This document shows, piece by piece, positions 5,196 through 28,493 of a DNA stretch of 64,000 nt. Position numbers and translations under genes: made by a program. How positions within the stretch are numbered: position 1 is the first letter of the stretch; each line of letters opens with the position of its first letter. Source of the stretch: Starkeya sp. ORNL1 (GTDB lineage: Bacteria; Pseudomonadota; Alphaproteobacteria; Rhizobiales; Xanthobacteraceae); the NCBI RefSeq assembly GCF_012971745.1, contig NZ_CP048834.1:6222189-6286188 (forward strand), read 5' to 3'. The notes beneath the pieces are model-generated. The model did no database searches. It had not been told where the DNA came from and saw nothing but the letters and a program-made list of their open reading frames with translations.

Positions 5196-5993
5196 ATGCC
5201 CAACGTCGTCGAGAACATTGCCAAGCGGAAGCTGAGGGAAGGCAAACTCATCCTCAGCCTGAGCGTCAACCAGATGCGGACGGCGAATATTGGCCTAGTC
5301 GCCGCGGCATGCGGATATGACGCCTTGTATTGCGATCTCGAGCACAACCCAACATCACTGGAATCCGCGGCGATGATCTGTGTCGCCACGTTGCCCACCG
5401 GTGTCACGCCGCTGTGCCGCGTCACCTCGCGCGATCCCCATGATATTGCCCGCGTGCTGGATTGCGGCGCGCAGGGCGTAATGGTTCCGCACGTCAGCAC
5501 GGTGGAGGAAGCCCGTGTCGCGGTAGATGCGGTCCGCTTCTCGCCGATCGGCCATCGTTCTGCGTTCAGCCAGGCGCCATCCCTCGGCTATGCCAGTTAT
5601 CCCCAGGGGCAGATCAACACGGTGCTGAATGCGGAAACCCTGCTGATCGTCATGCTGGAGACACCCGAGGCGATCGAAAACGCCGACGCCATCGCGGCGA
5701 TCGAGGGCATCGACATGGTGCATATAGGCTCCACCGATCTCAGCACCGAACTGGGAGTTCCGGGTGACTATCGGCACGAGCGCATGCGCGCCGCCTACGA
5801 GGAAGTGGCGGCCGCGGCGAAGGCGCACGGAAAGTGGATGGGTGTCGGCGGCGTGCGCAACGACATGGAATATCTGACTTGGCTGGTCAGCATCGGCGTT
5901 CAGTACCTTAGCGGAGCTTCGGACCTCGGCTTCATCCTTCAAGGTGGCAAAGCCGATGTCGCGGCAATGCGGAAAATCCCGCTTTGTAGCTGA
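5196..5993 (+). CDS. HpcH/HpaI family aldolase
   Basis: Class II pyruvate-type aldolase of about 265 residues, the usual size of the HpaI family (4-hydroxy-2-oxo-acid cleavage). Typical segments are YCDLEHN, QGVMVPHVSTVEEA, the METPEAI stretch carrying the metal-binding glutamate, and MVHIGSTDLS with the metal-binding aspartate. A strong GGGGGAACGG ribosome site precedes the ATG. It is the last gene of the operon, 41 bases after the amidohydrolase and about 50 bases before the left end of the genomic island. It probably cleaves the product of the amidohydrolase to pyruvate or a similar keto acid plus an aldehyde. Confidence 0.87.
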   Translation: MPNVVENIAKRKLREGKLILSLSVNQMRTANIGLVAAACGYDALYCDLEHNPTSLESAAMICVATLPTGVTPLCRVTSRDPHDIARVLDCGAQGVMVPHVSTVEEARVAVDAVRFSPIGHRSAFSQAPSLGYASYPQGQINTVLNAETLLIVMLETPEAIENADAIAAIEGIDMVHIGSTDLSTELGVPGDYRHERMRAAYEEVAAAAKAHGKWMGVGGVRNDMEYLTWLVSIGVQYLSGASDLGFILQGGKADVAAMRKIPLCS

Positions 5994-6043
5994 CCACCAC
6001 GCGCTGCTGGAATGATCGAGCAGCCGCTTCGGTAAACGGGAGT

Positions 6044-6061
6044 TTGGTGGGCCCGGCAGGA
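6044..6061 (+). repeat. attL, 18-bp direct repeat of the tRNA 3' end
   Basis: Identical over 18 bases to 28417-28434; the match stops at both flanks (T versus A on the left, A versus C on the right). It lies 50 bases after the aldolase stop. From here to the drmD start (6062-6582) I see no convincing gene. That stretch holds one copy of the island palindrome at 6327-6340 and should contain the promoter of the defence operon. Confidence 0.92.
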
Positions 6062-6326
6062 AACTAGGTGAGAATAAAATAACTATGTAAAATCAGATCT
6101 TTATATGAAGGTGCGTAGCGCGCTTGTGTAGCAGACGCATGATGTGTTTGCCCCCGGTCGTGGCTCCTCACAAGTGACGTATGTGTCAATCGAGTCCTAG
6201 CAAGGTACTCGAACCTGAAGCTTCGCAGGGGTTTCCGCGGGCCCGGTCCTCCGCATTCTTCGGCGAAGGGCGTGAAGATGATTATTGCCACGCGGGACCG
6301 CGTCACGCGGAACTGACACCTTTTGG

Positions 6327-6340
6327 TGCAACGGGTTGCA
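6327..6340. promoter_or_regulatory. island palindrome copy 1 (TGCAACGGGTTGCA)
   Basis: Six-base arms TGCAAC and GTTGCA around a 2-base centre. It lies 242 bases before the drmD start. The flanks are GG on the left and ATAAT on the right, shared with other copies. One of five related sites, all inside the island; function unknown. Confidence 0.65.
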
Positions 6341-6582
6341 ATAATCTGCGAGCCGCGGTTGGCGGCTTTTGACCCATCTGCGACCTTGGGAAGGTCCGCT
6401 CGCGTCGGACCGGCGCTGGAACGAGAATTCAGTTGCGGTGGAGCTGACTCTTAGCCGCCCAAGATCATCAATTCTTGGACGTGATGTGCCTTGCGTATCG
6501 CTGTGACACGCAAAATCCAGGCACGGTTGTAGCGCTATGGGCGCTTCGCTTAATGTGAATTTTAACAACAGGGGGGATTCGG

Positions 6583-9500
6583 GTGTCTGCTCCAAGCCAT
6601 TCGGCCTCCCCATCCGAGGGAGAGTTCGTCAGCGTCCGAGGGCGTCCTTGGTTGGTCGATGGTGTGATCGAGGCGGGGCGCGGACTCCAGACCCTTTCGC
6701 TTTCGTGCATCGCCGACGACGCCAACGGCGAGGCGCTGGAGGTCATCTGGGACGCTGAGGTCGCCGCGTCCGTAATTGATGACACGGGCTGGCAGTCGGT
6801 CGGCCTCGGTGGACCAGACAGTCCAGAGGTCCTAGCGGCGCATGTGAGGGCCTTGCGATGGAAGTCGGCCACGGCCGCGGACCGCGAGTTGCTGCAAGCG
6901 CCGTTCCGTGCAGGCATCCGGCTCGATGCCTATCAGTTGCTGCCTCTCCGAAAGGCTCTGCGCCTTCCCCGCGTAAACCTGCTCATCGCCGACGACGTCG
7001 GCTTGGGTAAGACGATCGAGGCTGGGCTGGTTACGCGGGAGCTGTTGCTTCGGAAGCGGGTCGATTTCATCGTAATTGCGGCTCCGCCTTCGATGACGAT
7101 CCAGTGGAAGGATGAGCTTGAGGCCAAGTTCGGTCTGTCGTTCGACATCATCGACCGGGAACGGGTTTCTGACCTTCGGCGTCAGCGCGGGTTCGCCGTG
7201 AACCCTTGGAACACCGGCTCGCGCTTCATTATCTCGCACCGGCTCCTAACAGACGAGACCTACGCTAGTGGGTTGCGAGACGTGCTCGGAGAGTTCCGCG
7301 CCCGCGCACTGCTAATCCTCGACGAGGCGCACCACGCCGCCCCTTCGGCGGGCGTTCGTTACGCGGTTTCAAGCCAACTAACTCGCGCCGTTCGTGAGCT
7401 CGCGGATCGTTTCGAGCACCGGCTGTTTCTGTCCGCCACGCCGCACAATGGACACTCGAACAGCTTCTCGGCACTTTTGGAGATGCTGGACCCTCAGCGG
7501 TTCACCCGAGGCGTCATCGTTCGGCCGAAAGACCTCGAGCCGGTCATGGTGCGGCGGCTGAAATCCGACCTGCGCCGCTTGGGCGAGGATTTCCCCAAAC
7601 GGATCATCGAGCCCATCGTTATCAACGGCCTACCTGACAACGCCTCCGAGCTGGACCTCGCACGCCGCCTCGCCGCCTATGGCGAGCTGCGCATGCTGCG
7701 CATCGCGAAGTTGCCGACCCAGAAGGCCGCCCTCGCCAAGCTGGCGTTCGTGGGGCTTCAGCAACGGCTGCTCTCCTCTATCGCCGCGTTCGCGCGCACC
7801 CTGAAGGTGCATCGCAAGGGGCTGCAGCGGATCATCGACGGGGAAACCCCACTGCAATCGGCGGGAGCCGCGCAGGGGTTCGTCGCGGCGCGCGCCGGAG
7901 ACGACGTCGCCGAACTCGATCTGGAAGACGCCGAAGCCGAGGCCACGGCCGACGCCGAGGAAGACAGCCTCGCCGATGCGGCGACGGTCATAGGCTCGGT
8001 CGGCGCTGAAAAGGGCGACCTCCTGGCTGAGCTCGCCGCGGTCGACGAGATGCTGGCCATCGCCGAGCACGCGGCCACCCGCCCCGACGCGCGCGTTCGT
8101 CACCTGGTCGATTGGATCAAGACCAACCTCTTCACCGATGGCGTCTGGAACGAGCGCCGCCTGATCCTCTTCACCGAGTACGAAGACACCCGCCGCTGGC
8201 TGGAGCGCCGGTTGCGGGAGGCGTTCTCAGACACAGATCGCGAGGACGAGCGGATCGGTGTCTTCTCCGGCGCGACCAATTCGGATCGCCGGGAGGCGGT
8301 GAAGCGGGCCTTCAACGCCGACCCCGCGGTCGAGCCCCTGCGCATCCTCATCTGCACTGACGCGGCGCGCGAAGGGATCAATCTGCAGACCCGCTGCGCC
8401 GATCTCATCCACTTCGATCTGCCCTGGAACCCGGCGCGGCTCGAACAGCGTAATGGTCGCATCGACCGCAAGCTGCAGCCGGCCAAACGCATCCATTGCC
8501 GATACTTCCGCTACGAGCAGCGGGAGGCGGACATCGTCCTCGAAGCCCTCGTTCGCAAAACCGAGACCATCCGCGAGGAACTCGGCTCCGCCGGCCGCGT
8601 CATCGAGGATCGCGTCACCGCCAAGCTGGCCGGGGCCGGGATCGGCAAGGGTCAGGCCACAGCGATCGCGCGCCAGGTCGCCGAAGAAGATGACAAGGAG
8701 GCCCGCGCGCGCGCCCAGGCTGAAATGGACGGCGAGGAAGCCGCCCGGCATGAGGTTCTGCTCAAGGAACAAGACGACCTTCGCCGGGCGCTCGAGCGCT
8801 CCCGCGAACGGGTGGGCGTCGATGCCGACGACCTTCAGCGTGTCGCGGCGACAGCCATGGCCCGGGCCGGCGTGTCGCTGGACGAGGCCGAAGCCGAACA
8901 CATCGGCAAGGTCGCGACGTTCCAGCTCGATCCGACCAGCCCCGGGTTCGCGACGGACGCCGGTTGGGACGACGCCTTTGACGACCTCCGCACCCGCCCC
9001 CGAAAGCGCGGCGAACGGGTCGGGGACTGGCGGCGTGACGCGCCGGTCCGTAAGATATCCTTCGAGCCGCCCATCCTGGCCGATGGCCGCAACGCCGACG
9101 ATGTCGTCCAAGTCCATCTGGAGCACAGGCTGGTCCGCCGCCTCCTCTCGCGGTTCCTCAGCCAGGGGTTCCAGTCGCGCCTCTCGCGACTGTCAGTGAT
9201 CCTGGGTCCGGGCGCGCAGCCGCGCATTGTTATGATGGGGCGCCTGGCGGTGTACGGGCCGAATGCGGCCAGACTGCACGAGGAGATCATCCCCATCACG
9301 GCGATCTGGACTGAAGCGGAACGAGCCACAAAGGCGCTGCGGCCACTCGGCGAAAGCGGCGAAGAGAAGACCTTGAACCAGCTCGAGGAGGCCCTGCGCG
9401 ATGGCCGCCAGGCGCCCGCGTCAGTCACCGCGCGCATCCAGCCGCTGTTGGCCAAGGACATCGCCGACCTGACACCCAGCTTGGCCTCCATCGCCAACGA

Positions 9501-9816
9501 GCGCTTGGCGGCCGTCAAGGTCCAGTTGACGAAGCGGGGTGAGGAAGAGGCCCGGTCGCTGACCACCCTGTTGGAGCAACAGCGTAATCGCATCCTCGCC
9601 GCGTCCAAGGACTTCAACCCGAACCAGCTGAGCCTCGACCTGGTGCCCGAGGAGCGCCGCGAGCGTGAGGCGGACAAGCGCCATTGGCAGACCCGGCTCG
9701 ACCGCTTGGAGAGCGAGCTGCAAACCGAGCCTCAGCGGCTGAGGGACGCCTACGAGGTTCGCGCCCACCGCCTCGAGCCGGTCGGGATCGTCTATCTCTG
9801 GCCGACGTCGGGATAA
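6583..9816 (+). CDS. drmD: DISARM SNF2-type helicase DrmD
   Basis: A large superfamily 2 helicase/ATPase of 1077 residues, the expected size and type for DrmD, the hallmark of class 1 DISARM. Motifs: an N-terminal VRGRPWLV domain, Walker A GLGKT at 140-144, DEAHH at 247-251, the motif III-like SATPHNGHSNSF, and the C-terminal QRNGRIDR arginine finger at 622-629. The C-terminal 400 residues are charged and probably helical. The GTG start has AGGGGGG about 8 bases upstream. It is the first gene of the defence operon, 4 bases from drmMI. In known systems DrmD adds ATP-driven DNA handling to the DrmAB core; this is inferred from the family. Confidence 0.88.
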   Translation: MSAPSHSASPSEGEFVSVRGRPWLVDGVIEAGRGLQTLSLSCIADDANGEALEVIWDAEVAASVIDDTGWQSVGLGGPDSPEVLAAHVRALRWKSATAADRELLQAPFRAGIRLDAYQLLPLRKALRLPRVNLLIADDVGLGKTIEAGLVTRELLLRKRVDFIVIAAPPSMTIQWKDELEAKFGLSFDIIDRERVSDLRRQRGFAVNPWNTGSRFIISHRLLTDETYASGLRDVLGEFRARALLILDEAHHAAPSAGVRYAVSSQLTRAVRELADRFEHRLFLSATPHNGHSNSFSALLEMLDPQRFTRGVIVRPKDLEPVMVRRLKSDLRRLGEDFPKRIIEPIVINGLPDNASELDLARRLAAYGELRMLRIAKLPTQKAALAKLAFVGLQQRLLSSIAAFARTLKVHRKGLQRIIDGETPLQSAGAAQGFVAARAGDDVAELDLEDAEAEATADAEEDSLADAATVIGSVGAEKGDLLAELAAVDEMLAIAEHAATRPDARVRHLVDWIKTNLFTDGVWNERRLILFTEYEDTRRWLERRLREAFSDTDREDERIGVFSGATNSDRREAVKRAFNADPAVEPLRILICTDAAREGINLQTRCADLIHFDLPWNPARLEQRNGRIDRKLQPAKRIHCRYFRYEQREADIVLEALVRKTETIREELGSAGRVIEDRVTAKLAGAGIGKGQATAIARQVAEEDDKEARARAQAEMDGEEAARHEVLLKEQDDLRRALERSRERVGVDADDLQRVAATAMARAGVSLDEAEAEHIGKVATFQLDPTSPGFATDAGWDDAFDDLRTRPRKRGERVGDWRRDAPVRKISFEPPILADGRNADDVVQVHLEHRLVRRLLSRFLSQGFQSRLSRLSVILGPGAQPRIVMMGRLAVYGPNAARLHEEIIPITAIWTEAERATKALRPLGESGEEKTLNQLEEALRDGRQAPASVTARIQPLLAKDIADLTPSLASIANERLAAVKVQLTKRGEEEARSLTTLLEQQRNRILAASKDFNPNQLSLDLVPEERREREADKRHWQTRLDRLESELQTEPQRLRDAYEVRAHRLEPVGIVYLWPTSG

Positions 9817-9820
9817 GGTC

Positions 9821-12800
9821 ATGAGCGAAGACATCAACCGCGATCCAGACATCGAATGGCTCGACCATGTGCGGCCGGTCGGCCTGGTCATCGCCGCCAG
9901 CCTGATCAAAGAGCTTGGCCTCGCGCCGACCCGCCAGACGGCCGTGGACACCGCGGAGGCGGCCGAGCAGATCGACGTGGAGGGTTCGGGCCGCTCGCTG
10001 CGCGATCCGTGGGCCTTCGCGCAGGCCATCCTCGGTTGGGAAGCGCGGCACGTCGCGGGTGCGCCAGAGGGATCGGAGATCCCGGTGTCCCTCGTCGTAC
10101 CGCTTCCCGAGCACAACACGTCGCTGCAGCCGACCTGGGCAGTGGGCGAGCTGGGCGATGGCGCCGGCGAGTGGCAACTGCTCATTCGCGTCGAGGACGC
10201 CGGCGTCGATCCGGATCAGCGGGCGAGCCTGGACGGGTGGGAGGCGACGCCGCAACAGCGGTTCGAACGGCTCCTGCGTGAAACCGGCGTGTTCGTCGGC
10301 CTGATGATCACCGACAACGCCCTGCGACTGACCTACGCGCCGCGGGGCGAGACGTCCGGTCATCTGACCTTCCCGATCCGGCCGCTGGCGATGGTCGCCG
10401 GCCGGCCGATGCTGGGCGGCCTCAAGCTGCTGCTGGGCGCTGTCCGCCTCTTCATCGAAGGCGACGACCGCCGACTGCCGGCCCTGCTGGCAAAGAGCCG
10501 CGACGCCCAGGCCGCGGTCTCCACCGCGCTCGCCGGACAGGTGCTCGGTTCCCTGCATGAGCTCCTGCGCGGCTTCGACGCCGCCGAGCCCGACCTCGTC
10601 CGCCATCTCGCCACCAGCCGGCCCGGCCACCTCTACGAGGGCCTTCTGACGGTGCTGATGCGGCTGGTCTTCGTGCTCTACGCCGAGGACCGCGACCTGC
10701 TGCCCTCCCGGACCGACGCCGACGCCCGGCGTGTCTATGAAACCAGCTACGCCGTGCGCGGGCTCTATGCGCGCCTGAGCGAGGACGCGGCCCTCCACCC
10801 GGATACGATGGACGAGCGCCAGGGCGGGTGGGGCCAGCTTCTGGCGCTGTTCCGGCTGATCTACGGCGGGCATCGCACTGGCTTTGTGCAGGAGCGCGGC
10901 GGCAAGCTGTTCGACCCCGACGCCTTCCCGTTTCTGGAGGGTCGGACGCTCCCGACGGACGCGCCGCGCGTGCCGGGCGTCTCCGATGGCTGCCTGCTTC
11001 GCATCCTCGAAGGCCTGATGACGCTGAAGCTCCGGGGCGGAACGCGAGAGCGGCTGTCCTATCGCGCGCTCGACGTCGAACAGATCGGCTCGGTCTACGA
11101 GACGGTGATGGGCTTCGAGGCCGGCCTGACGTCCGGCCGCTCGCTGGCGATCAAGGCCGGCAAGAACAACAAGACCCCCGTCTTCGTGGACCTCGACGCG
11201 CTGGCGGCGCTCAAGGGCAAGGCGCGGATCAAGTCCCTGAAGGAAGATACCGGCCGGGCCTTGACGGCCGCGCAAGCCAAGCCGATCGACGACGCCGGGA
11301 GCCTCGAGGACCTCGTCGTTGCGCTGGATGGCCTGGTCGATGAGCGGGGCTCGCCCAAGAAGACCCTCGCGGCGCCGGGCACGCCGATCCTGCAGCCGAC
11401 CGATGAGCGCCGCAGGACGGGAAGCCACTACACGCCCCGGTCGCTTACCGCGCCCATCGTCAAGCACGCGCTGGAGCCAGCCTTCGCTTGCCTAGGGCCC
11501 GACGCTACGGCGGATCAGGTTCTGGACCTTAAGGTCTGCGATCCCGCCATGGGGTCGGGCGCCTTCTTGGTCGAGGCCTGTCGCGCGCTGGGCGAGCGCC
11601 TGATCTTGGCTTGGGCGCGCTGGCCGGAGAGCCGGCCCACGATCCCGGCCGACGAAGATGAGGAGCTGCATGCCCGGCGGCTTGTCGCCCAGCGCTGCCT
11701 ATATGGCGTCGACAAGAACCCCCGCGCGGTCGATCTGGCGCGGTTGTCGCTCTGGCTGGCGACGCTGGCGCGGGACCATGAGTTCACCTTCCTCGACCAC
11801 GCATTGAAGTGCGGCGACAGCCTCGTCGGGCTCACACCATCGCAGATCGCCGCGGCCAACTGGGATGAAGCCAAGCCTGGGTTGCCGCTGTTCCGCCAGC
11901 TGGTCCGCGAGAGGGTCGCTGAGGCTGAAACCGCCCGAGCAGAGATTCAGTCCGCGCCCGACGATACAACACGTGTGATCCAGGAGGCGCGGCATCGCCA
12001 TGTAGAGACCCGATTGTCGCCGATCCGTGCGATGGGCGATGCGATCCTTTCGGCGTTCTTTGCTGCCGACAAAGGCAAGGCGCGTGAAAAGGCGAGGGCG
12101 GAGGTCGAGAGTCAGATTTCGGGTATGCCGCCACGATGGGACCAGCTCGATGCGGCGGCGAACAGGTTGCGATCGGGAGAGCTAGGTATCCCGCCATTCC
12201 ATTGGCAGCTTGAGTTTCCCGAGGTGTTTGCGCGCGAAAACGCTGGGTTCGATGCGATTGTTGGTAATCCGCCCTTTTTGGGTGCCAAGCGGATTTCCGA
12301 GCAATTTGGAACTGGATATCGAGATTGGCTCGCAGCGCTACACTACCGCAGCACCAAGAATGTTGATCTGGTTGGACATTTCTTTCTCCGAGCATACTCG
12401 CTGCTGAGAGCCGATGGGGTCATGGGCCTAATTGGCACCAACACTCTTGCTCAAGGTGACACGCGTGAGGGATCGCTCGCCATAATTTTGACCGGCGGCG
12501 GAGCTGTCGCCCGCGCTCGAAAGCGCGTGCCTTGGCCGGGCGATGCTGGTGTCGTCGTTTCCGTCGTGCACATAGCGAAGGGCGCAGTGTCCAACGCGTT
12601 CCTAGACGCCCGGCCTGTGAGCAGGATTTCGGCCTATTTGGTAGAGGGCGACTTCGACAGCTCGCCGTCTAGGCTTGCGGCGAATTCTCGCAAAGCATTT
12701 CAGGGGTCCATCATCTTGGGGATGGGCTTCACGTTCGATGATGTGGCCGCGGCGAAGGGAGCTGCAGCTTCCGCCAGCGATATGGCGAGGATTATAGCGT

Positions 12801-13762
12801 CCGACCAAGCAGCTTCTCGGCGGATATTTCCGTATCTTGGCGGTGACGAGATAAACACCTCTCCAACCCAAGAGCATGATCGGTACGTTATCAACGTCAA
12901 CAATATGTCCATAGAGCAGGTCGAAGAGGAGCTTCCCGGAATATTCGAAGTTCTTTCTCGCTATGTACAACCCTATAGGCAGGTGGAAAAAAACAAGAAA
13001 AATGGTCCGATGTACTACGAATGGTGGCGCTACTGGCGAGAGCGCCCGGATTTGTATCAATCCATTGGAAACCTCAAGAGTGCGTTCGCGCTGTCCCGTC
13101 ACTCGGCCCAAATGGCGGTAGCTTGCGTCCCTAGAGAAATCGTGTTCGCCGACAGTTGCATCGTATTTTCATTTGATAAGTTTTCCGCTTTTGCTGTGTT
13201 GCAGTCGCGCTCTCACGAGCTTTGGGCGAGATTCTTCGCGTCTACACTGGAAGATCGACTTCGATACACACCATCCGACTGTTTTCGGACGTTTCCGTTC
13301 CCGACCAACTTCGAGGACGATCCAGCTTTGGAGGCCGCGGGTCAGGCGTATGATGCGTTCCGGGGGCGTTTGATGGTCGATCGAAATGAAGGGCTCACCA
13401 AGACCTATAACCGCTTCCACGCGCGCGGCGAAAACGCCGCCGACATTGCTCGCTTGCGGACACTGCACGCCGAAATGGATGCTGCCGTATTGCGAGCTTA
13501 TGCGCGCGGCGAGACCGAGGAGGATCTGGCACGCGCCTGGGATAGCTTGGCCGACCGGGCCACGACCGTATTCACGGAACTCGAGGCCGATGAGGGCAAA
13601 AAGGTCAAGACCCGCCTGGATTGGCCCGCCGACTTCAAGGACGAAGTTCTCGCGCGCCTCCTTGCATTGAACGTAACCCGCGCCGCCGGGGAACGCGCTG
13701 CCGGACTAACCGTCGCGGTGGATGAAGATGATGAGGACGACGACGACGACGATGCCGCCTGA
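9821..13762 (+). CDS. drmMI: DISARM N6-adenine DNA methyltransferase DrmMI
   Basis: A 1313-residue methyltransferase. The SAM-binding motif DPAMGSGAF is at 574-582 and the amino-methyltransferase motif NPPF at 816-819, the pattern of adenine-N6 enzymes of the Eco57I/DrmMI type. About 550 residues precede the catalytic core; the part after NPPF should contain the target-recognition domain. That section (about 12,200-13,400) is clearly poorer in G+C than the rest of the gene. The last residues are a run of aspartate and glutamate (DEDDEDDDDDDAA), which is odd. The start follows drmD by 4 bases with AAGG upstream. Expected role: methylate host DNA so that the system spares it. Confidence 0.87.
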   Translation: MSEDINRDPDIEWLDHVRPVGLVIAASLIKELGLAPTRQTAVDTAEAAEQIDVEGSGRSLRDPWAFAQAILGWEARHVAGAPEGSEIPVSLVVPLPEHNTSLQPTWAVGELGDGAGEWQLLIRVEDAGVDPDQRASLDGWEATPQQRFERLLRETGVFVGLMITDNALRLTYAPRGETSGHLTFPIRPLAMVAGRPMLGGLKLLLGAVRLFIEGDDRRLPALLAKSRDAQAAVSTALAGQVLGSLHELLRGFDAAEPDLVRHLATSRPGHLYEGLLTVLMRLVFVLYAEDRDLLPSRTDADARRVYETSYAVRGLYARLSEDAALHPDTMDERQGGWGQLLALFRLIYGGHRTGFVQERGGKLFDPDAFPFLEGRTLPTDAPRVPGVSDGCLLRILEGLMTLKLRGGTRERLSYRALDVEQIGSVYETVMGFEAGLTSGRSLAIKAGKNNKTPVFVDLDALAALKGKARIKSLKEDTGRALTAAQAKPIDDAGSLEDLVVALDGLVDERGSPKKTLAAPGTPILQPTDERRRTGSHYTPRSLTAPIVKHALEPAFACLGPDATADQVLDLKVCDPAMGSGAFLVEACRALGERLILAWARWPESRPTIPADEDEELHARRLVAQRCLYGVDKNPRAVDLARLSLWLATLARDHEFTFLDHALKCGDSLVGLTPSQIAAANWDEAKPGLPLFRQLVRERVAEAETARAEIQSAPDDTTRVIQEARHRHVETRLSPIRAMGDAILSAFFAADKGKAREKARAEVESQISGMPPRWDQLDAAANRLRSGELGIPPFHWQLEFPEVFARENAGFDAIVGNPPFLGAKRISEQFGTGYRDWLAALHYRSTKNVDLVGHFFLRAYSLLRADGVMGLIGTNTLAQGDTREGSLAIILTGGGAVARARKRVPWPGDAGVVVSVVHIAKGAVSNAFLDARPVSRISAYLVEGDFDSSPSRLAANSRKAFQGSIILGMGFTFDDVAAAKGAAASASDMARIIASDQAASRRIFPYLGGDEINTSPTQEHDRYVINVNNMSIEQVEEELPGIFEVLSRYVQPYRQVEKNKKNGPMYYEWWRYWRERPDLYQSIGNLKSAFALSRHSAQMAVACVPREIVFADSCIVFSFDKFSAFAVLQSRSHELWARFFASTLEDRLRYTPSDCFRTFPFPTNFEDDPALEAAGQAYDAFRGRLMVDRNEGLTKTYNRFHARGENAADIARLRTLHAEMDAAVLRAYARGETEEDLARAWDSLADRATTVFTELEADEGKKVKTRLDWPADFKDEVLARLLALNVTRAAGERAAGLTVAVDEDDEDDDDDDAA

Positions 13763-13776
13763 AGGGTGGTGGCTTC

Positions 13777-13810
13777 GCAAGAAAATCTTGCAATCGGAGA
13801 AATGCAAGAT
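13777..13810. promoter_or_regulatory. triple half-site operator before the XRE-ImmA gene
   Basis: Three copies of the half-site GCAAGA/TCTTGC lie in 34 bases: GCAAGA at 13777-13782, TCTTGC at 13786-13791 and GCAAGA at 13804-13809. The outer pair extends to ATCTTGCA and TGCAAGAT with a 10-base spacer. They lie in the 70-base gap between drmMI and the XRE-type gene, 23 bases before its start, the classic place for autoregulation by an XRE protein. The assignment of the binding protein is inference. Confidence 0.65.
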
Positions 13811-13832
13811 TACATGATCGCGGGAGGCGGTC

Positions 13833-14936
13833 ATGGCGAACTTCATCGGAGCGAGGATCAAGGCGTTGCGCGAAGAGCGGAAGCTCTCGCAGGACGACCT
13901 CGCGCGCGTATTCGGTTTCAAGGACCGTCAGACGGTGTCGGCGATCGAGACGGGCGAGCGGCGGGTGACCGCCGAGGAACTGGTCATCGCCGTCGAGAAG
14001 CTCGGCGCGTCCCTCGACTATTTCACCAACCCCTTCCTCCTGGTGGGCGAGGGGCGGTTCTCCTGGCGGCAGACCAATGTCGGGCCGCAGGCTCTCAATG
14101 GCTATGAGCGCAGTGCGGGCCGTTGGATCGCCGCCTATCGGGCGCTCTCGTCACAAGTCGGGCGGGCGGCGCCTCTGCTGCGCCGATCGCTGGGCCTCAC
14201 TTCGCGCCACAGCTTTGAAGACGCCATGGAGGCCGGTGAGCGCTTTGTGGCGGAGTTCGAGCTCGGCGATGTGCCGGCCGACCGGCTCGCCGAGAGCGTG
14301 GAGCAGGCCCTCGGGATTCTGGTGCTCAGGGTGGACGCCTTCGAGGGGATATCCGGCGCCGCCTGCCGGCTGCCCGAGCTCGACGTGGTTCTCATCAACC
14401 GCAACGAGGTGGTGGGCCGCCGCAACTTCGACCTGGCGCACGAGCTGTTCCACATCCTCACCTGGGACACCATGCCGCCTGAACACTCCGAGGCCGCAGT
14501 GGAGACCGGCGGCAACCGGGTCGAGCAGCTCGCCAACAACTTCGCCTCGGCGGTCCTGATGCCGGTGAACATACTGGACGGAATGGCCGACTGGTCGGCC
14601 TTGGCCGATGACGCGCTCGTGGCGCGGTTGAACGGCGCCGCCGACCAGCTGAAGGTCACGGCATCCGCCTTAAAGTGGCGGCTTGTCGCCCTGAACAGGC
14701 TGAAGCTGGCCAAGGCGCGGGCGATCCCCGACGCGGCCTTGCGCAACAATGGACGTGGGGAGGCGGCGGTTGACGCGCCGCCGCCCTTCTCCAAGCCGTT
14801 CGTCGAAGTAGTCGGCCTGGCCATCGAGGGCGGCCACTTGTCGGCCCGGCGGGCCAGTGGGCTGCTCGACCTGACGGTCGATGAGCTGGGTGACCTCTTC
14901 GAGGTCTACGGGGCTCCGTCCCCCATCGAGCTTTGA
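13833..14936 (+). CDS. XRE-family HTH protein fused to an ImmA/IrrE metallopeptidase
   Basis: A 367-residue protein. Residues 1-60 form a Cro/cI helix-turn-helix (LREERKLSQDDLARVFGFKDRQTVSAIETGER). The middle holds a zinc peptidase motif, HELFH at 203-207, with a likely third ligand in E231-QLANNFASAVLMP; this is the ImmA/IrrE (COG2856) family. Such proteins cleave repressors in mobile elements and in the Deinococcus stress response, or act as antitoxins. GGGAGG precedes the ATG by 6 bases. It begins the embedded module between drmMI and drmA, and a PIN-domain gene follows after 6 bases. It may repress its own promoter through the inverted repeat upstream. Confidence 0.88.
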   Translation: MANFIGARIKALREERKLSQDDLARVFGFKDRQTVSAIETGERRVTAEELVIAVEKLGASLDYFTNPFLLVGEGRFSWRQTNVGPQALNGYERSAGRWIAAYRALSSQVGRAAPLLRRSLGLTSRHSFEDAMEAGERFVAEFELGDVPADRLAESVEQALGILVLRVDAFEGISGAACRLPELDVVLINRNEVVGRRNFDLAHELFHILTWDTMPPEHSEAAVETGGNRVEQLANNFASAVLMPVNILDGMADWSALADDALVARLNGAADQLKVTASALKWRLVALNRLKLAKARAIPDAALRNNGRGEAAVDAPPPFSKPFVEVVGLAIEGGHLSARRASGLLDLTVDELGDLFEVYGAPSPIEL

Positions 14937-14942
14937 TGATCG

Positions 14943-15458
14943 ATGCCGCGTCACAAGGGTCCCCTCCTGATCGACACCAACATCATCCTGGAGTGCTTCC
15001 GGGTGGGGTCCTGGCGCGCGCTGACGGGCGGCTATCAGGTCGAGACGGTGGAGGACTGTGTGACCGAGACCCAGACCGGATTCCAACGCCGCCGCCCCGA
15101 AGCGCTGATCAATCCCGCCGAACTTGCCGGCGGTCTGAGCGCGGTACATCCAGTGACCGACGCGCAGCGCGCGGTCGTGGCGATCCGCGCGCCGGATATC
15201 GCCCTGGATGTGGGCGAACGCTCGCTGTGGGCGCACGCCCTGACACGGAGCGACGCCTGGGTTCTCTGCGGGCCGGACAAGGCCAGCATGCGCTTCGGCG
15301 TTCGGTTGGGCTTTCGCGACCGGCTCATCGCCCTGGAGGCGCTGCTCGCCGACGCCGGGTATCGGCCCAAGGAAGCCTTGAAACCGGCCTACACGGCCAA
15401 GTGGCTTGGGAACGCCCTGGGCGAACTTGTTCTTTCAGAAGGCCTTGGACGCTTATGA
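14943..15458 (+). CDS. PIN-domain protein, putative RNase partner of the XRE-ImmA gene
   Basis: A 171-residue protein that starts as a PIN-fold nuclease (LLIDTNIILE, with D11). Other candidate metal-binding acids are E42, E92 (in GERSLW) and D104/D112 (DAWVLCGPDKAS), in the order expected for a VapC-like site. It follows the XRE-ImmA gene by 6 bases, and its stop overlaps the drmA start (ATGA), so it is translated within the same operon. ImmA/IrrE-PIN pairs have been predicted as toxin-antitoxin modules; here the pair is locked inside a defence operon. RNA cleavage activity is inferred only from the fold. Confidence 0.75.
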   Translation: MPRHKGPLLIDTNIILECFRVGSWRALTGGYQVETVEDCVTETQTGFQRRRPEALINPAELAGGLSAVHPVTDAQRAVVAIRAPDIALDVGERSLWAHALTRSDAWVLCGPDKASMRFGVRLGFRDRLIALEALLADAGYRPKEALKPAYTAKWLGNALGELVLSEGLGRL

Positions 15459-18400
15459 CCAGCTCGCTTGACGTCCGTACCCGCATCGCCAGCGCCTTCC
15501 GCCGCGACCTGGTCGGTCCTGGTCCTGACCCTGAGGATTTCGACCTCGCCAGTGAGCGGCTGAACGAGAACCCTTCGCGCTGGTATCTCACCGGCTTTCT
15601 TGCGCCGGCCGACGACGAACTGGCGCTCGACGGGGCCGAAGACGGTGACGCTTCGGCCGAGGCAGAAGAACTGGAGATCGAAGGCGGCGAGGCTGACGCC
15701 GACGGCGCTGGCGGGGCGGCAGGTGACAACGAGGAGCCCGAAGCGCCCAACGCCAGGCGGCGCTTCCTGCCGTCTTCCGTCGGTCTGACCGTACTACTCG
15801 ATCCTGACATCCGTGAGATCGAAGCCCTCGTCTCCTGGGGGGACTATCGCACCGAGCCGCCCATGGACAAGGCGCTGCTGCTGCCCGATGCGGAGGGCGA
15901 GCTGGACCCCGAGAAGAAACCGCGGCGTCCGCAGGTCGAATGGGTTCGCGCGCCCAAGGAACGTAGGTTCACGCTAGCCGTCCAGGACGGGCGGGCCGGA
16001 CCGTTCATCGTACCGGATAGCGCCGCGGAACAGCTGCCCGGCGGCGGCCTGTGCCTGGAAACCCACTCGCGGGTCTTCACATTCCCAACGCCCGATGGGC
16101 AGGTCGAGCGGGTGCGGGCGCTGACGGTCTTCCTGGTCAACCGCCGCTCGCGCGCCCACCGCTTCTACGCGGACGTCGGCTACGCCTTCCAGGCGCGCCT
16201 GGAGCTGAAGAGCAAGGCGGGTTTCCGCCCGCGCCGCGACCTCTCCGGCATGACGTCGAACGACGCGGACCTGCAGATCGCCGACCTGCACTATCGCGAC
16301 GTCTGCGAATGGGCCGTCGGGCGCAACGCCGCCGCCGCTTGGCCGCGTGACCAGGAAACGGCGGGCGATGTGAAGCGGGTCTGGACCGACCCGTTGCCCC
16401 TGGCCGAAGTGGAGCGCGTGGCGCCGAACGAAGGCGAGCCGCTAAAGTCCGCCGTGACCTTTGGCATGGAGGCGCTGGCTGATCTGGCCAGCGGCGACGG
16501 GTCGGCGCTGAGGTCGGCGCTCGAGGCTCTGCCCAAGCTCTATGGCGACTGGATTACAGCCCAACGGGCCATTTCGCTGACGTCGCCCCGCCGCCGCCAG
16601 ACCGCGGACGATCTGATCCGGGACATGGAGACGGCGAAGGCTCGGATCGGCGCCGGCCTCGAGGTCCTCGCGACCGAACCGCTCGCGCGCCAGGCCTTCG
16701 GCTTCATGAACCTCGCCGTGGCGCGCGCCGCCCGTCGCCGCAACGCCGGGCCGCAGGGTGATCCGGCGGCGCAACGCGCACCCGCTTGGCGGCCATTCCA
16801 GCTGGCCTTCATCCTGCTGAATCTCTCGGGCTTGGCCGACAATCGCCACCCCGATCGGGAGACGGCGGACTTGCTGTTCTTCCCGACGGGGGGCGGCAAG
16901 ACCGAAGCCTATCTGGGCCTCGCGGCCTTCACCATCGCCATGCGGCGGCTCAAGGCTCCCGGCGTGCTGGGCGCGGGCGTCGCGGTGATCATGCGCTACA
17001 CGCTGCGCCTCCTGACCCTCGACCAGCTGGCGCGCGCCGCAGGCGTCGTCTGCGCGCTCGAACTGATGCGCACGGATCCCGCGAACGTGAACGAACGCGG
17101 CCGGAAGGTCCTCGGCGACTGGCCGATTGAAATCGGCCTTTGGGTCGGATCGGACGCCTCCCCGAACAAGCTCGGCCGGACCGGTGAAGCCGATCAGACA
17201 ACGGCCGTGGGCCGCGTGCGGCGCTATCGGCTCGGTCAGGACAAGCGGGCGCCGGCACCGATCAAGGCCTGTCCCTGGTGCGGTACGGCTTTCACGCCGG
17301 AGTCGTTCTCCTGCACGCCCAGCAATGCGGCGCCCACCAACCTGGAAATCCGCTGCGTCAACGATCGGTGCGACTTCACCCGCAACCGCCCTCTGCCGAT
17401 CCTTACGGTAGATGAGCCAATCTACAGGCGCTTGCCGGCCTTCCTGATCGCGACAATCGACAAGTTCGCGGCCTTGCCTTGGGTCGGCGAAACAGGCGCC
17501 TTCTTTGGCCACGTCAACCGTTTCGATCCGAATATCGGGTTCTATGGCGCGGCCGAGCCAGGACATGGACGGCCGCTCGACAACGGCTGGAAGCTCGATC
17601 CGCCGGATCTGATTATTCAGGACGAGCTGCATCTGATCGCTGGACCGCTGGGAACGGTGGCGGGCCTATACGAATGCGCCATCGACCAGCTCGCCGAGCG
17701 GACCCGTGACGGCAAGCGCATCCGCATGAAGATCGTGGCCTCCACCGCCACGGTGCGGCGCGCGTCCGACCAGATCGCCGCCCTCTTCGACCGGCAGACG
17801 ACCAGTATCTTTCCGCCTCCCGGGCCCGACCGGTCGGACAGCTTCTTCGCCGTCACCGTGCCGACCTCGAAGGATCCGGCGCGTCTCTACATGGGCATTG
17901 CCGCGCAAGGCCGGGGTCCGAAGCTCGTCTTCCTGCGAGCGCTGACGACCCTGCTCGCCGCGGCTCAGGCGGCCTATCAGGCGGATCCTCCGAAGGACGG
18001 CAAGGCCAGCCCCGCGGACCCGTACATGACGGCGCTCTGCTACTTCAACGCGCTGCGGGAGCTGGGCGGCGCGCGCCGGATCGTCGAGGACGAGGTTCGC
18101 GACCGGGCGCGGCGCTATGGCGATGAACGCCGCCGGGTTGTTCCGCATGACCAGCCGTTCGGCGACCGGCCCATCCGCGAGCCCATGGAGTTGACCTCGA
18201 GGGTCTCGACTGATCAGGTCGCCCTCGCCAAGCAGCGCCTCGAGGCAGGGTTCTTGGGCCAAGCCGAGACGGTCGACGTGGCGCTCGCTACCAACATGAT
18301 CTCGGTCGGCCTCGACATCACGCGCCTCGGCCTAATGGTGGTGCAAGGCCAGCCGAAGACCGCCGCTGAATACATCCAGGCGACCAGCCGCGTCGGTCGC

Positions 18401-18985
18401 GATCACAACCGGCCCGGACTGGTGGTCGCGGTGCTCAATCTCCACAAGCCGCGCGACCGAATGCATTTCGAGCATTTCGGCCAGTACCATCGTACCTTCT
18501 ACCGCGCGGTCGAAGCGACCAGCGTCACGCCCTGGGCGGCCAGGGCGCTGGACAGGGCGCTCGCGGCGGTGGTCGTCTCTGCTGCCAGGCACCTCGACGC
18601 CGGCCTCACCTATGAGACATCCGTCGTCGACTTGGCGGCCAACCCCGATGTCATGGCCGCTGTTCGTAACTTCATCGTGATTCGTGCGCCGCCATCTGCG
18701 GTCGCCGGCGGCAGCGCCGCTCTGCGCGCGATGATCGAGCAGGTCTTCGCCGACTGGGTCTCAACAGCGCACGATCAGGCAGCGGGCGGGAACACCTTCG
18801 CCTATGCGCGGAAGAAGAGTCCTCACCGGCTCCTGCATCAGCCTCTGGAGCCGGAGATCGAGAATCTGACGCCCGCACACGCGCGCTTTGTCGCCGGTCG
18901 ATCCATGCGCGATGTCGAGCCCTCGGTCCGCATGAAGGTCAAAGACCCCTACGGGTCCCCCATTGCCAACGCGGATGACGTCTGA
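15455..18985 (+). CDS. drmA: DISARM helicase DrmA
   Basis: A 1176-residue helicase, the core DISARM motor. An acidic low-complexity segment lies at about residues 60-95. ATPase motifs are PTGGGKT (477-483), QDELH (722-726, replacing the usual DEAH), SVGLDI, and motif VI QATSRVGR (975-982). A zinc-ribbon-like CPWC (606-609) pairs with a later CVNDRC. The frame is open much further upstream, but the start is the ATG at 15455, which overlaps the PIN stop and begins MTSSLDVRTRIASAFRRDLVGP. Its stop overlaps the drmB start (TGATG). In described systems DrmA forms a complex with DrmB that loads on 5'-overhang single-stranded DNA of phages. Confidence 0.88.
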   Translation: MTSSLDVRTRIASAFRRDLVGPGPDPEDFDLASERLNENPSRWYLTGFLAPADDELALDGAEDGDASAEAEELEIEGGEADADGAGGAAGDNEEPEAPNARRRFLPSSVGLTVLLDPDIREIEALVSWGDYRTEPPMDKALLLPDAEGELDPEKKPRRPQVEWVRAPKERRFTLAVQDGRAGPFIVPDSAAEQLPGGGLCLETHSRVFTFPTPDGQVERVRALTVFLVNRRSRAHRFYADVGYAFQARLELKSKAGFRPRRDLSGMTSNDADLQIADLHYRDVCEWAVGRNAAAAWPRDQETAGDVKRVWTDPLPLAEVERVAPNEGEPLKSAVTFGMEALADLASGDGSALRSALEALPKLYGDWITAQRAISLTSPRRRQTADDLIRDMETAKARIGAGLEVLATEPLARQAFGFMNLAVARAARRRNAGPQGDPAAQRAPAWRPFQLAFILLNLSGLADNRHPDRETADLLFFPTGGGKTEAYLGLAAFTIAMRRLKAPGVLGAGVAVIMRYTLRLLTLDQLARAAGVVCALELMRTDPANVNERGRKVLGDWPIEIGLWVGSDASPNKLGRTGEADQTTAVGRVRRYRLGQDKRAPAPIKACPWCGTAFTPESFSCTPSNAAPTNLEIRCVNDRCDFTRNRPLPILTVDEPIYRRLPAFLIATIDKFAALPWVGETGAFFGHVNRFDPNIGFYGAAEPGHGRPLDNGWKLDPPDLIIQDELHLIAGPLGTVAGLYECAIDQLAERTRDGKRIRMKIVASTATVRRASDQIAALFDRQTTSIFPPPGPDRSDSFFAVTVPTSKDPARLYMGIAAQGRGPKLVFLRALTTLLAAAQAAYQADPPKDGKASPADPYMTALCYFNALRELGGARRIVEDEVRDRARRYGDERRRVVPHDQPFGDRPIREPMELTSRVSTDQVALAKQRLEAGFLGQAETVDVALATNMISVGLDITRLGLMVVQGQPKTAAEYIQATSRVGRDHNRPGLVVAVLNLHKPRDRMHFEHFGQYHRTFYRAVEATSVTPWAARALDRALAAVVVSAARHLDAGLTYETSVVDLAANPDVMAAVRNFIVIRAPPSAVAGGSAALRAMIEQVFADWVSTAHDQAAGGNTFAYARKKSPHRLLHQPLEPEIENLTPAHARFVAGRSMRDVEPSVRMKVKDPYGSPIANADDV

Positions 18986-20865
18986 TGGCCAAGAACGCGC
19001 AACGTCTCAGCCAGCTCGTCTCCACCTTCGGCCCCGGAGCCATGATCGACCTTCCCACGCGGTCCGTCGTGGTCGGCGGCCTTGAGCGGTGGGACATGAG
19101 CGGGGGCAGTTTCTCGGTGATCTCCGAGCCACGGCTATCGAGTCGGCTCGAAAAGCTCCTGCAGGATCAGGGCCGGTTGGGGGCCGGCGTGAGCCTCACC
19201 CTGCGGACGCCGCCCAAGGAGCTCGATGCGCAGCGGAGTGGCTCCGCAGGCGTCGATGCGCCGGTGTTCCCCAAGTGGTTCATCTGCGAAACGGTGGAGG
19301 ACGTGGGAATCGGCGAGGGCGCGAGGGCTTCGCGCCGGCGCCGACTGGTCCGCTGGAACGATCTCGACAGCAAGGGGCGGCGGCGGTTCGAGTTCGACGA
19401 TGGGCGCAAGAGCGATGTCACGCCAATTCGCTTCGTCTGCGCCTGCGACAACGGCCATCTCGACGACATCAACTGGCGGTACGCAGTTCATGGTCCTGAT
19501 GTCTGCGCCGAGGCGATGTACATCGAGGAAAAGGGCACGAGTGCGGACCCCGCGGACACCAGCGTTGTGTGCGGCTGCACCCGGCGGCTTTCGCTGCAGG
19601 ATCTCTTCCAGCCCGGCCGGCTCGGGAAGTGCCAAGGTCAGCGCCCCTGGCTCCTGGACCGAGATCCGGATGGCTGCGACCAGAACCTGAAGCTGCTCAC
19701 CCGGACCGCGACCAATACCTACTTCCCACAGGTCTATACTGTCATCTCGCTGCCGACGGAGGAGGACGAGCTCTCTCGCCTCGTCGAGAACCTCGCGGGC
19801 GAGCTTGCCAAGGCCACGACGGTCGAGCACATCGCCGCGGCGAAGATGTTTAATTCAAAGGTCGAGGCGACGCTCGGCCCCTATGCTAACAGCGACATCC
19901 TGGAGCGCCTGCTGCGCTTGCGGGAGAACGCACAGTCCGATCTTGGCCGCCCCCCGCAGGTCGCTGAGTTCGATGTCTTCGCCAGCGGCCGGGGTGAAAT
20001 CGGCCACAACGCGCCAGACGCGAAGCTCTACGCGCAGACGGTGCCACCAGAGCAGTGGCGCAACGAGAGCGTCGGGGTCGACTTGTCCTCAATCAACAAT
20101 CTCGTTGCGGTGCATCGCCTCCGCGAGGTGTCATGCCTGTATGGTTTCACTCGATTTGAAGCTGCACCCGCCAGTGTGGACGGCGATTTCGAGGACATCC
20201 AGTTGGCGGTGCGGGGCGCTCCCCTTAGCCAAGGCGCGGACTGGCTGCCGGCGATCGAGCAGTTCGGTGAGGGGATCTTCATCCATTTCGATGAGACGAA
20301 GATCGCTGACTGGCTCCAGTGCGCAGAGGTGCAGGCTCGACAGGTCAAGCTCCTGGCGGGCTACGATCACTGGCGGAAACGCTTTACCGCAACGCCACCG
20401 TCCTATCCAGGCACGCCGTACGTACTGCTCCACAGCCTGTCCCACGCACTGATGAGTGAGATCGCGCTTGATTGCGGCTACCCCGCCAGCTCCTTGAAGG
20501 AACGGATTTACGCGGTGCCGAGCCGCCAGAATCCCGGCGCGTATGATCGTTGCGGAATCCTGATCTACACCGCAACACCCGGCGCGCAGGGAACCTTGGG
20601 CGGCCTGGTCGCCACCGCGCCAAGGTTCGCATCACTTCTGAAGAATGCTCTCGCAAGACTGACGATCTGCTCAAGCGATCCTGTCTGCGCTGACCACGAG
20701 CCCGATGACCGAAGCGGTGACCGAGCGACGCACGGCGCTGCGTGCCATAGCTGCCTATTGATCTCCGAACCCAGTTGCGAGCGCCGAAATCTGTTCTTAG
20801 ACCGCAGTCTACTAGTCCGGACGATGTCTGATGACGGCGCTGAGCTGTTCGGGGAGATTACTTAG
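18985..20865 (+). CDS. drmB: DISARM DUF1998 protein DrmB
   Basis: A 626-residue partner of DrmA. The N-terminus SQLVSTFGPGAMIDLPTRSVVV is typical of DrmB, and the C-terminus holds the DUF1998 cysteines: C562, C568, C587 and C590 in GAACHSC, then SEPSCERRN. These probably bind zinc. Further cysteines at about 150-215 (CACDNGHLDD, CGCTRR) may form a second site. It shares a TGATG overlap with drmA. In the usual class 1 order a phospholipase-D gene (drmC) follows; here drmB is the last gene and is followed by more than 1 kb without one. Confidence 0.87.
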   Translation: MAKNAQRLSQLVSTFGPGAMIDLPTRSVVVGGLERWDMSGGSFSVISEPRLSSRLEKLLQDQGRLGAGVSLTLRTPPKELDAQRSGSAGVDAPVFPKWFICETVEDVGIGEGARASRRRRLVRWNDLDSKGRRRFEFDDGRKSDVTPIRFVCACDNGHLDDINWRYAVHGPDVCAEAMYIEEKGTSADPADTSVVCGCTRRLSLQDLFQPGRLGKCQGQRPWLLDRDPDGCDQNLKLLTRTATNTYFPQVYTVISLPTEEDELSRLVENLAGELAKATTVEHIAAAKMFNSKVEATLGPYANSDILERLLRLRENAQSDLGRPPQVAEFDVFASGRGEIGHNAPDAKLYAQTVPPEQWRNESVGVDLSSINNLVAVHRLREVSCLYGFTRFEAAPASVDGDFEDIQLAVRGAPLSQGADWLPAIEQFGEGIFIHFDETKIADWLQCAEVQARQVKLLAGYDHWRKRFTATPPSYPGTPYVLLHSLSHALMSEIALDCGYPASSLKERIYAVPSRQNPGAYDRCGILIYTATPGAQGTLGGLVATAPRFASLLKNALARLTICSSDPVCADHEPDDRSGDRATHGAACHSCLLISEPSCERRNLFLDRSLLVRTMSDDGAELFGEIT

Positions 20866-28318: not shown

Positions 28319-28416
28319 TTTGTCCGCCCCTTGTGTAGCCAAGGCGTGTAGCAGTCTGCCCGGATAAGCCTTTGATTTGAAGTGTTTTCTTCGACTATCA
28401 ATCACTTAGGTGGTGA

Positions 28417-28434
28417 TTGGTGGGCCCGGCAGGA
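28417..28434 (-). repeat. attR, 18-bp core overlapping the tRNA 3' end
   Basis: The second copy of the 18-base repeat. It covers the last 17 bases of the tRNA gene plus one flanking base, so the tRNA stays intact after integration. Confidence 0.92.
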
Positions 28435-28493
28435 CTCGAACCTGCAACCAGACCGTTATGAGCGGTCGGCTCTAACCATTGAGCTACAGGCCC
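28418..28493 (-). tRNA. tRNA with CAT anticodon, probably tRNA-Ile2
   Basis: A 76-base tRNA including encoded CCA. The acceptor stem is GGGCCTG with CGGGCCC, the anticodon stem GACCG/CGGTC, the loop CTCATAA (anticodon CAT), and the T-arm GTTCGAG. The D-loop (AGCTCAATGGTTAGAGC) has the short form seen in tRNA-Ile2, the substrate of TilS lysidine synthase, and not the longer form of elongator Met tRNA. The choice between Ile2 and Met rests on that comparison. It is the integration site of the island. Confidence 0.88.

Follow-up and report, generated by a model that had tools for sequence, protein, structure and literature searches.

Class 1 DISARM is composed of drmD, drmMI, drmA, drmB and drmC. 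We analyzed a DISARM operon of Starkeya sp. ORNL1 that lies in a stretch of 64,000 nucleotides from the end of one 6.29-Mb contig (NZ_CP048834.1, positions 6,222,189 to 6,286,188, hereafter the window), and in which two further genes, encoding an XRE-ImmA/IrrE fusion and a PIN-domain nuclease, stand between drmMI and drmA. DISARM and gene pairs of this type were both known before; it is the pair inside DISARM, together with an operator-like dyad of its own, that appears to be new here. The 2009 study by Makarova, Wolf and Koonin reportedly predates DISARM. There, COG2856-Xre fusions with PIN genes, the same gene-pair type as ours, were predicted to be toxin-antitoxin systems, PIN being counted 60 times in the table row for COG2856, and the passages of the article drawn on here note no link to DISARM (PMC2701414). 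In RosmerTA, the toxin RmrT accompanies the XRE-ImmA antitoxin RmrA, much as the XRE-ImmA gene here lies beside a toxin-like gene, and RmrA is the best PADLOC match of our fusion protein (60 bits; capP scored 53 bits). Likewise, the ImmA (D25) zone of NetFlax is described as holding ImmA proteins with PIN-like partners (PMC10440598). Our locus differs from RosmerTA and NetFlax in that its PIN family lies outside the Pfam, PADLOC and NCBIfam models and in that the pair is embedded in a larger defense operon; PADLOC returned no match between the PIN protein and the families of RmrT, toxins described as diverse (PMC10440598).

Controllers of immune operons offer a second comparison. CapH with CapP, as well as CapW, are described as regulators that answer DNA damage and control adjacent BREX, Pycsar, CBASS and DISARM operons (PMC13373217). 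Like CapH-CapP and CapW/BrxR, the locus studied here places a helix-turn-helix repressor and an ImmA/IrrE-type protease ahead of immune genes, and the capP match points the same way; unlike them, it has the two domains fused, a PIN gene between controller and target, and its site in the middle of the operon. VapKSC is described as a three-gene operon in which CapK/CapS-like proteins control a VapC toxin and answer single-stranded DNA (ssDNA), and so also joins an immune-operon controller to a PIN toxin, although it uses kinase/STAS proteins instead of XRE-ImmA and forms an operon of its own (PMC13373217). In the literature searched, mostly titles and abstract openings with few subscription papers, we found neither a description of an XRE-ImmA/PIN pair in DISARM nor the two-stage DISARM design discussed below.

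Positions 6583-20865 of the window hold a class 1 DISARM operon of six co-directional genes, with drmD, drmMI, drmA and drmB adjacent and in the usual class 1 order, and with drmA, drmB and drmD above curated cut-offs:

6583-9816, plus strand: drmD, class 1 DISARM SNF2-like helicase (NF038317, 1027 bits, cut-off 610; PADLOC DrmD, 1008 bits)
9821-13762, plus strand: drmMI, class 1 DISARM adenine methyltransferase (PADLOC DrmMI, 1182 bits; Eco57I and MmeI methylase/TRD domains)
13833-14936, plus strand: XRE-ImmA/IrrE fusion, 367 amino acids, predicted repressor, antitoxin and zinc protease (HTH_3 and Peptidase_M78)
14943-15458, plus strand: PIN-domain nuclease, 171 amino acids, predicted VapC-like toxin (confident model, VapC/PIN fold matches, conserved acidic set)
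15455-18985, plus strand: drmA, DISARM YprA-family helicase (NF038325, 1090 bits, cut-off 950), overlapping the PIN stop by 4 bp
18985-20865, plus strand: drmB, DUF1998/MZB partner of DrmA (NF038324, 530 bits, cut-off 240; MZB domain)

A preliminary sequence-only reading of this DNA had described a one-direction operon with gaps of 4 to 70 bases or 4-base overlaps, and had seen in the overlap between PIN and drmA a coupling of the pair to drmA; the gene coordinates confirm the first point, and the 4-bp overlap of PIN stop and drmA start bears out the second. The operon departs from the class 1 scheme in two respects: a toxin-antitoxin-like pair with a conserved dyad separates drmMI from drmA, and drmC was not found. 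No PLD or DrmC match appeared in the subset of open reading frames picked for scanning around the operon, and a tblastn search of the window with the PLD protein of another DISARM locus (L152; L numbers denote our loci) gave none at E 1e-4. This is still compatible with DISARM, since, by published account, DISARM can do without drmC and often lacks it (PMC9142583).

Sequence comparison shows that one branch of class 1 DISARM has the pair and its conserved dyad at a fixed position ahead of drmA. An alignment of PIN sequences, used once to scan the species genomes of GTDB, yielded 63 loci, in which drm genes were then located by tblastn. The arrangement is recurrent rather than a single case, a question raised by the sequence-only reading: in 28 of the 63, drmA follows PIN by 3-69 bp, and one more (L062) keeps a drmB remnant. 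On the stretches examined, these 28 DISARM loci match drmMI in 25 cases and drmD in 23. The remaining 34 loci hold no drm gene on the stretch examined; 29 of them extend at least 1.5 kb 3' of PIN, while the other five (L029, L030, L050, L060 and L064) extend less, so that DISARM is possible there, and, for L050, a DrmA above cut-off lies on a different contig of the genome. XRE-ImmA stands directly 5' of PIN in 59/63 loci, the exceptions being three that start at most 281 bases before PIN (L040, L056 and L061) and a rearranged one (L063). One locus (L007) lies on a contig that bears the name Streptomyces sp. AcH 505 in an otherwise mostly alphaproteobacterial set, either a jump between phyla or contamination.

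How often DISARM carries the pair was asked of DrmA searches made independently of PIN, in partly overlapping samples of 385 (class), 397 (order) and 398 (phylum) genomes. They supplied 31 stretches: the class and order searches contributed every place of at least about 320 bits, and the phylum search six new stretches, leaving out G979 (393 bits) and weaker matches. Fifteen of the 31 hold drmD, drmMI, drmA and drmB, and six of these carry the pair (L134, L135, L137, L138, L139 and L186), or 7/16 with the window included; L134 and L135 repeat the sequences of L010 and L026. Presence follows DrmA relatedness. The pair is found in 6/6 of these class 1 loci whose DrmA is at least 55% identical to that of the window and in 0/9 below, the genome samples spanning 56-73% in loci with the pair and 35-51% in loci lacking it. 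Plasmids show a less sharp border: in the six stretches examined out of 25 records with at least 80% cover, DrmA identity was 74, 73 and 51% in the three with the pair and 57, 56 and 50% in the three lacking it. A plasmid search by PIN gave five records, three of them shared with the DrmA records. The DrmA tree contains one 28-row clade with the pair in every locus; most rows were found through PIN, the members found through DrmA being the window, L134, L135, L139, L152 and L153. As this tree mixes loci from both searches, its 36-to-21 split is biased, and frequencies are given from DrmA-found loci only. The DISARM association proposed from the sequence alone holds in part: the pair is separable, 34/63 PIN loci having no drm gene, but one class 1 DISARM branch carries it consistently.

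In DISARM, the pair is fixed rigidly to the genes behind it and loosely to those in front. Among the 34 listed loci with the pair in DISARM, two of which duplicate others, XRE-ImmA and PIN are separated by 6-7 bp in 33 and by 16 bp in the remaining one (L020). The distance at which the DrmA match follows the PIN stop is -4 to 8 bp in 31/34, with wider spacings of 62 (L034), 62 (L043) and 113 bp (L151). By contrast, 74 to 3954 bp of variable content lie between the tblastn matches of drmMI and the pair in the 29 loci listed; the unit XRE-ImmA, PIN, drmA, drmB stays constant while the stretch after drmMI varies. Among pair-free relatives, drmMI overlaps drmA by 4 bp in L148 and L150, and L149 has an accessory gene between the two. 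Three accessory families are seen in the slot that separates drmMI from the dyad, none with a match in Pfam:

L014:8163-8816, with ten further loci (eight of them distinct): family c7
L032:7972-8820: family c15, to which the accessory gene of L149 also belongs
L020:7205-8176: family c25

XRE-ImmA has also diverged together with drmA. Across 32 loci, XRE-ImmA distances correlate with those of DrmA at r 0.89 (0/999 permutations as high), the value for DrmB being 0.99. A single capture of the pair by DISARM is neither favored nor rejected: the XRE-ImmA tree requires four changes once L028 and L062 are relabelled as DISARM (six before), but with a single clade of DISARM loci an approximately unbiased test finds no significant conflict (p 0.129). 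The history has the marks of a pair that joined the front of drmA-drmB and was then inherited with them.

Just 5' of XRE-ImmA, whether or not DISARM follows, we find a conserved dyad that is new to this work. Its elements in the window are:

13777-13791, plus strand: first palindrome of the control site, GCAAGA-AAA-TCTTGC (seen in the sequence and in the site consensus)
13786-13809, plus strand: operator-like dyad TCTTGCA-N10-TGCAAGA (exact match, 5' of XRE-ImmA)

The dyad overlaps a promoter-like stretch, TTGCAA-N17-TACATG (13788-13816). Allowing up to three mismatches, it is present in 64/66 loci (the 66 comprising 64 distinct XRE-ImmA sequences), 13-68 bp ahead of the XRE-ImmA match start, in DISARM (35/36) and other settings (29/30) alike. 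Every dyad found has a spacer of exactly 10, although the search admitted 6-13, and, with the same loose settings, 55 of 1320 random 180-mers drawn from these loci also gave a hit. The two misses, L062 and L063, have XRE-ImmA matches that lack the first 91 and 51 residues; a further pair locus, L186, has the dyad with two mismatches. The consensus of the 33 distinct DISARM-linked sites reads GCAAgAtaaTCTTGCAatt....tTTtGCAAGAtTAtat. In these, the 5' half-site of the first palindrome, GCAAgA, is strong; in the 29 distinct sites of non-DISARM pairs the first half-site reads GCatA instead, and promoter geometry may differ between the two settings. Besides the exact copy, the window has three with three mismatches, none of them at drmD. 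Control of the whole operon from an operator at drmD is not favored, no copy with up to two mismatches lying near drmD in the window. The conserved dyad at the front of the pair supports the suggestion, already made in the sequence-only reading, that the pair may be a regulator.

The HExxH motif of XRE-ImmA is kept in 66/66 relatives, window included, and the closest named relative, from Ancylobacter mangrovi, is 93% identical. The PIN protein has no family match among Pfam, PADLOC and NCBIfam models, but its structural model (predicted local distance difference test score, pLDDT, 91) has the fold of VapC/PIN nucleases, with matches mostly to RNases from toxin-antitoxin pairs or RNA processing. 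A first model built from 32 close sequences was poor (pLDDT 44) and was dropped; a PDB sequence search with the first profile gave no match. Gaps aside, the acidic residues hardly vary across 71 relatives including the window: D11 (67/67), E42 (70/70), and D89, E92 and D112 (70/71 each). Stop codons interrupt four PIN genes (L029, L030, L057 and L059). Taken together, the pair resembles a toxin-antitoxin module that regulates itself, made of a RosmerTA/CapHP-like antitoxin and a VapC-like toxin.

Away from DISARM, the pair keeps varied company. Going by contig names, the 34 drm-free loci come from 31 genomes, those of L023, L063 and L064 being covered by other loci. A DrmA-family match is lacking in 15 of the 31, a count limited by the many drafts among them that may be incomplete; 11 have a match of at least 300 bits elsewhere, five of these above the family cut-off, and five have weak matches only. 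In the genomes of L037 (a whole chromosome), L024, L046, L050 and L061, the pair stands apart from drm genes and a DrmA above cut-off lies elsewhere; the two may have been split apart or acquired separately. Five loci (L042, L047, L048, L051 and L058) have, after PIN, a protein of 773-809 amino acids belonging to one family (75-81% identical). The L058 member carries DEAD and MZB domains and has YprA (6znp) as best PDB match; it is a YprA/MrfA-like helicase and ties the pair a second time, through another gene, to the DrmA/DrmB helicase family. In three further loci, where the pair sits behind conjugation genes (TraD-like and TrwC-like, as scanned in L018), a defense-like gene follows directly:

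L018:10611-14192: DSR2-like gene
L016:10536-11372: AbiJ_NTD4 gene
L025:6161-9586: NERD gene with a weak NACHT match

Our preferred explanation, to which we give somewhat better than even chances, is that a toxin-antitoxin module has come to head and control the restriction half of DISARM. That an autoregulated module controls drmAB is the part we hold to be probable, and the defense-like genes directly behind the pair in L018, L016 and L025 agree with it. By its layout, the pair looks as if it splits DISARM into drmD-drmMI and a self-repressed unit, XRE-ImmA-PIN-drmA-drmB. The XRE part would bind TCTTGCA-N10-TGCAAGA and repress this unit, and the fusion protein would also keep PIN inactive. 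Once the ImmA protease is triggered, most likely by ssDNA arising during phage infection or DNA damage, as is reported for the relatives CapP and PprI/IrrE, repressor and antitoxin would be lost, DrmAB would be produced in quantity, and freed PIN would cut RNA, slowing or stopping the cell if infection persists. That PIN is an abortive toxin seems to us an evenly balanced proposition, and an abortive-infection branch of DISARM acting through the pair is possible. The inducer is named more tentatively. CapP is described as activated by ssDNA (PMC13373217; PMC10904395), PprI as answering it (PMC10904395), and DrmAB as switched on by ssDNA loading (PMC9142583); it is by analogy with these proteins and with CapK-type controllers that XRE-ImmA might give way on ssDNA. 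Since drmD-drmMI, which would mark host DNA, would lie outside this control, marking could come before restriction. A full two-stage DISARM, with drmD-drmMI acting on arrival and drmA-drmB held by XRE-ImmA until a DNA-distress signal releases them together with the PIN RNase, is a more doubtful extension.

Several observations weigh against control of drmAB by the pair. The many pairs away from DISARM mean that the link is not obligatory, and the gene behind the pair is not defense-like in L036 (a solute-binding protein) or L041 (UvrC); in L046 it has no match. PIN tracks DrmA less closely than XRE-ImmA does (r 0.77, 32 loci), and in L032 and L153 it seems to have been exchanged or to evolve fast. 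A strict sigma-70 scan called no promoter at the dyad, and drmAB may not depend on an internal site at all, as transcription could read through from drmMI. Nor are site counts decisive: at up to three mismatches the window has four sites against a shuffle average of 1.7, and at up to one mismatch the whole genome has a single site, as it does for a reversed control pattern. Rarity alone therefore proves little, and it is the fixed place and spacer that count as evidence.

The operon itself lies on a probable 22.4-kb integrative island (6044-28434), delimited as follows:

6044-6061, plus strand: probable left attachment repeat, 18 bp, an exact repeat of 28417-28434
26600-28405, minus strand: tyrosine integrase by tRNA-Met, probable island integrase (Phage_integrase and DUF6538 domains)
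28417-28434, plus strand: probable right attachment repeat, 18 bp, at the 3' end of tRNA-Met (28418-28493, minus strand)

In a genus sample of 30 genomes, the tRNA-Met/SIMPL stretch is matched in all, the PIN gene in one, the window's own. The stretch left of the island has a good match (78%) in one of the 29 other genomes, away from that genome's tRNA-Met; the left flank not being shared at this place, the island's left side differs between strains, and no empty site is shown in the genus sample.

Such a setting invites the thought that the pair is a selfish passenger, lodged between drmMI and drmA, stabilizing the island by addiction and playing no part in DISARM. The probable tRNA-Met island with its integrase, the three other pair-bearing DISARM loci that lie on plasmids, the 34 drm-free loci and a dyad kept in all settings alike would suit it. 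Yet XRE-ImmA co-diverges with DrmA, the pair is joined tightly to drmA on its 3' side and variably on its 5' side, and all six loci near the window's DrmA in the DrmA-searched genome samples carry it. Tightness alone is no proof of function, because any insert in an operon must leave drmA transcribed. We hold a passenger to be unlikely. We consider it quite unlikely, too, that PIN is the missing nuclease, taking the role of drmC beside the DrmAB helicase while XRE-ImmA controls PIN only. A nuclease is presumed to be recruited by DrmAB (PMC9142583), scans near the operon found no drmC-like PLD gene, and PIN abuts drmA in DISARM and precedes a member of the L058 helicase family in five loci; that helicase is, however, present in only 5/29 drm-free loci with at least 1.5 kb downstream, in none of six other loci whose next gene was scanned is that gene a YprA-type helicase, a Methylocystis plasmid locus holds a PLD-family gene and the pair together, and the PIN fold resembles mostly toxin-antitoxin or RNA-processing RNases.

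The sequence-only reading had further offered a guard, in which a DISARM protein would restrain PIN so that the toxin is freed when DISARM is lost or inhibited. Operon coupling would suit a guard, as would the 11/31 genomes with a DrmA relative elsewhere, and L153 shows what it predicts: drmMI (5228-10016) is split by an insertion sequence of the IS5 family and PIN (11489-12001) has lost the active-site D112, possibly a joint decay. The broken loci L139, with drmA split by an insertion, and L151, with drmD in pieces, nevertheless keep both pair genes open. The 15/31 DrmA-free genomes, many of them possibly incomplete drafts, imply that XRE-ImmA should suffice as antitoxin and, with the 34/63 drm-free loci, that a DISARM protein is unlikely to be an obligatory one. 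We regard the guard as highly improbable.

The conserved dyad, placed between the marking half of the operon and the restriction half, bears on how the host is spared when DISARM arrives on a plasmid or island, and on how DISARM is switched on. If a toxin-antitoxin module indeed serves here as the control head of a larger defense operon, it would take its place alongside CapHP and VapKSC. Should the two-stage reading hold as well, a single switch would both keep the incoming island from attacking its host and provide an abortive fail-safe.

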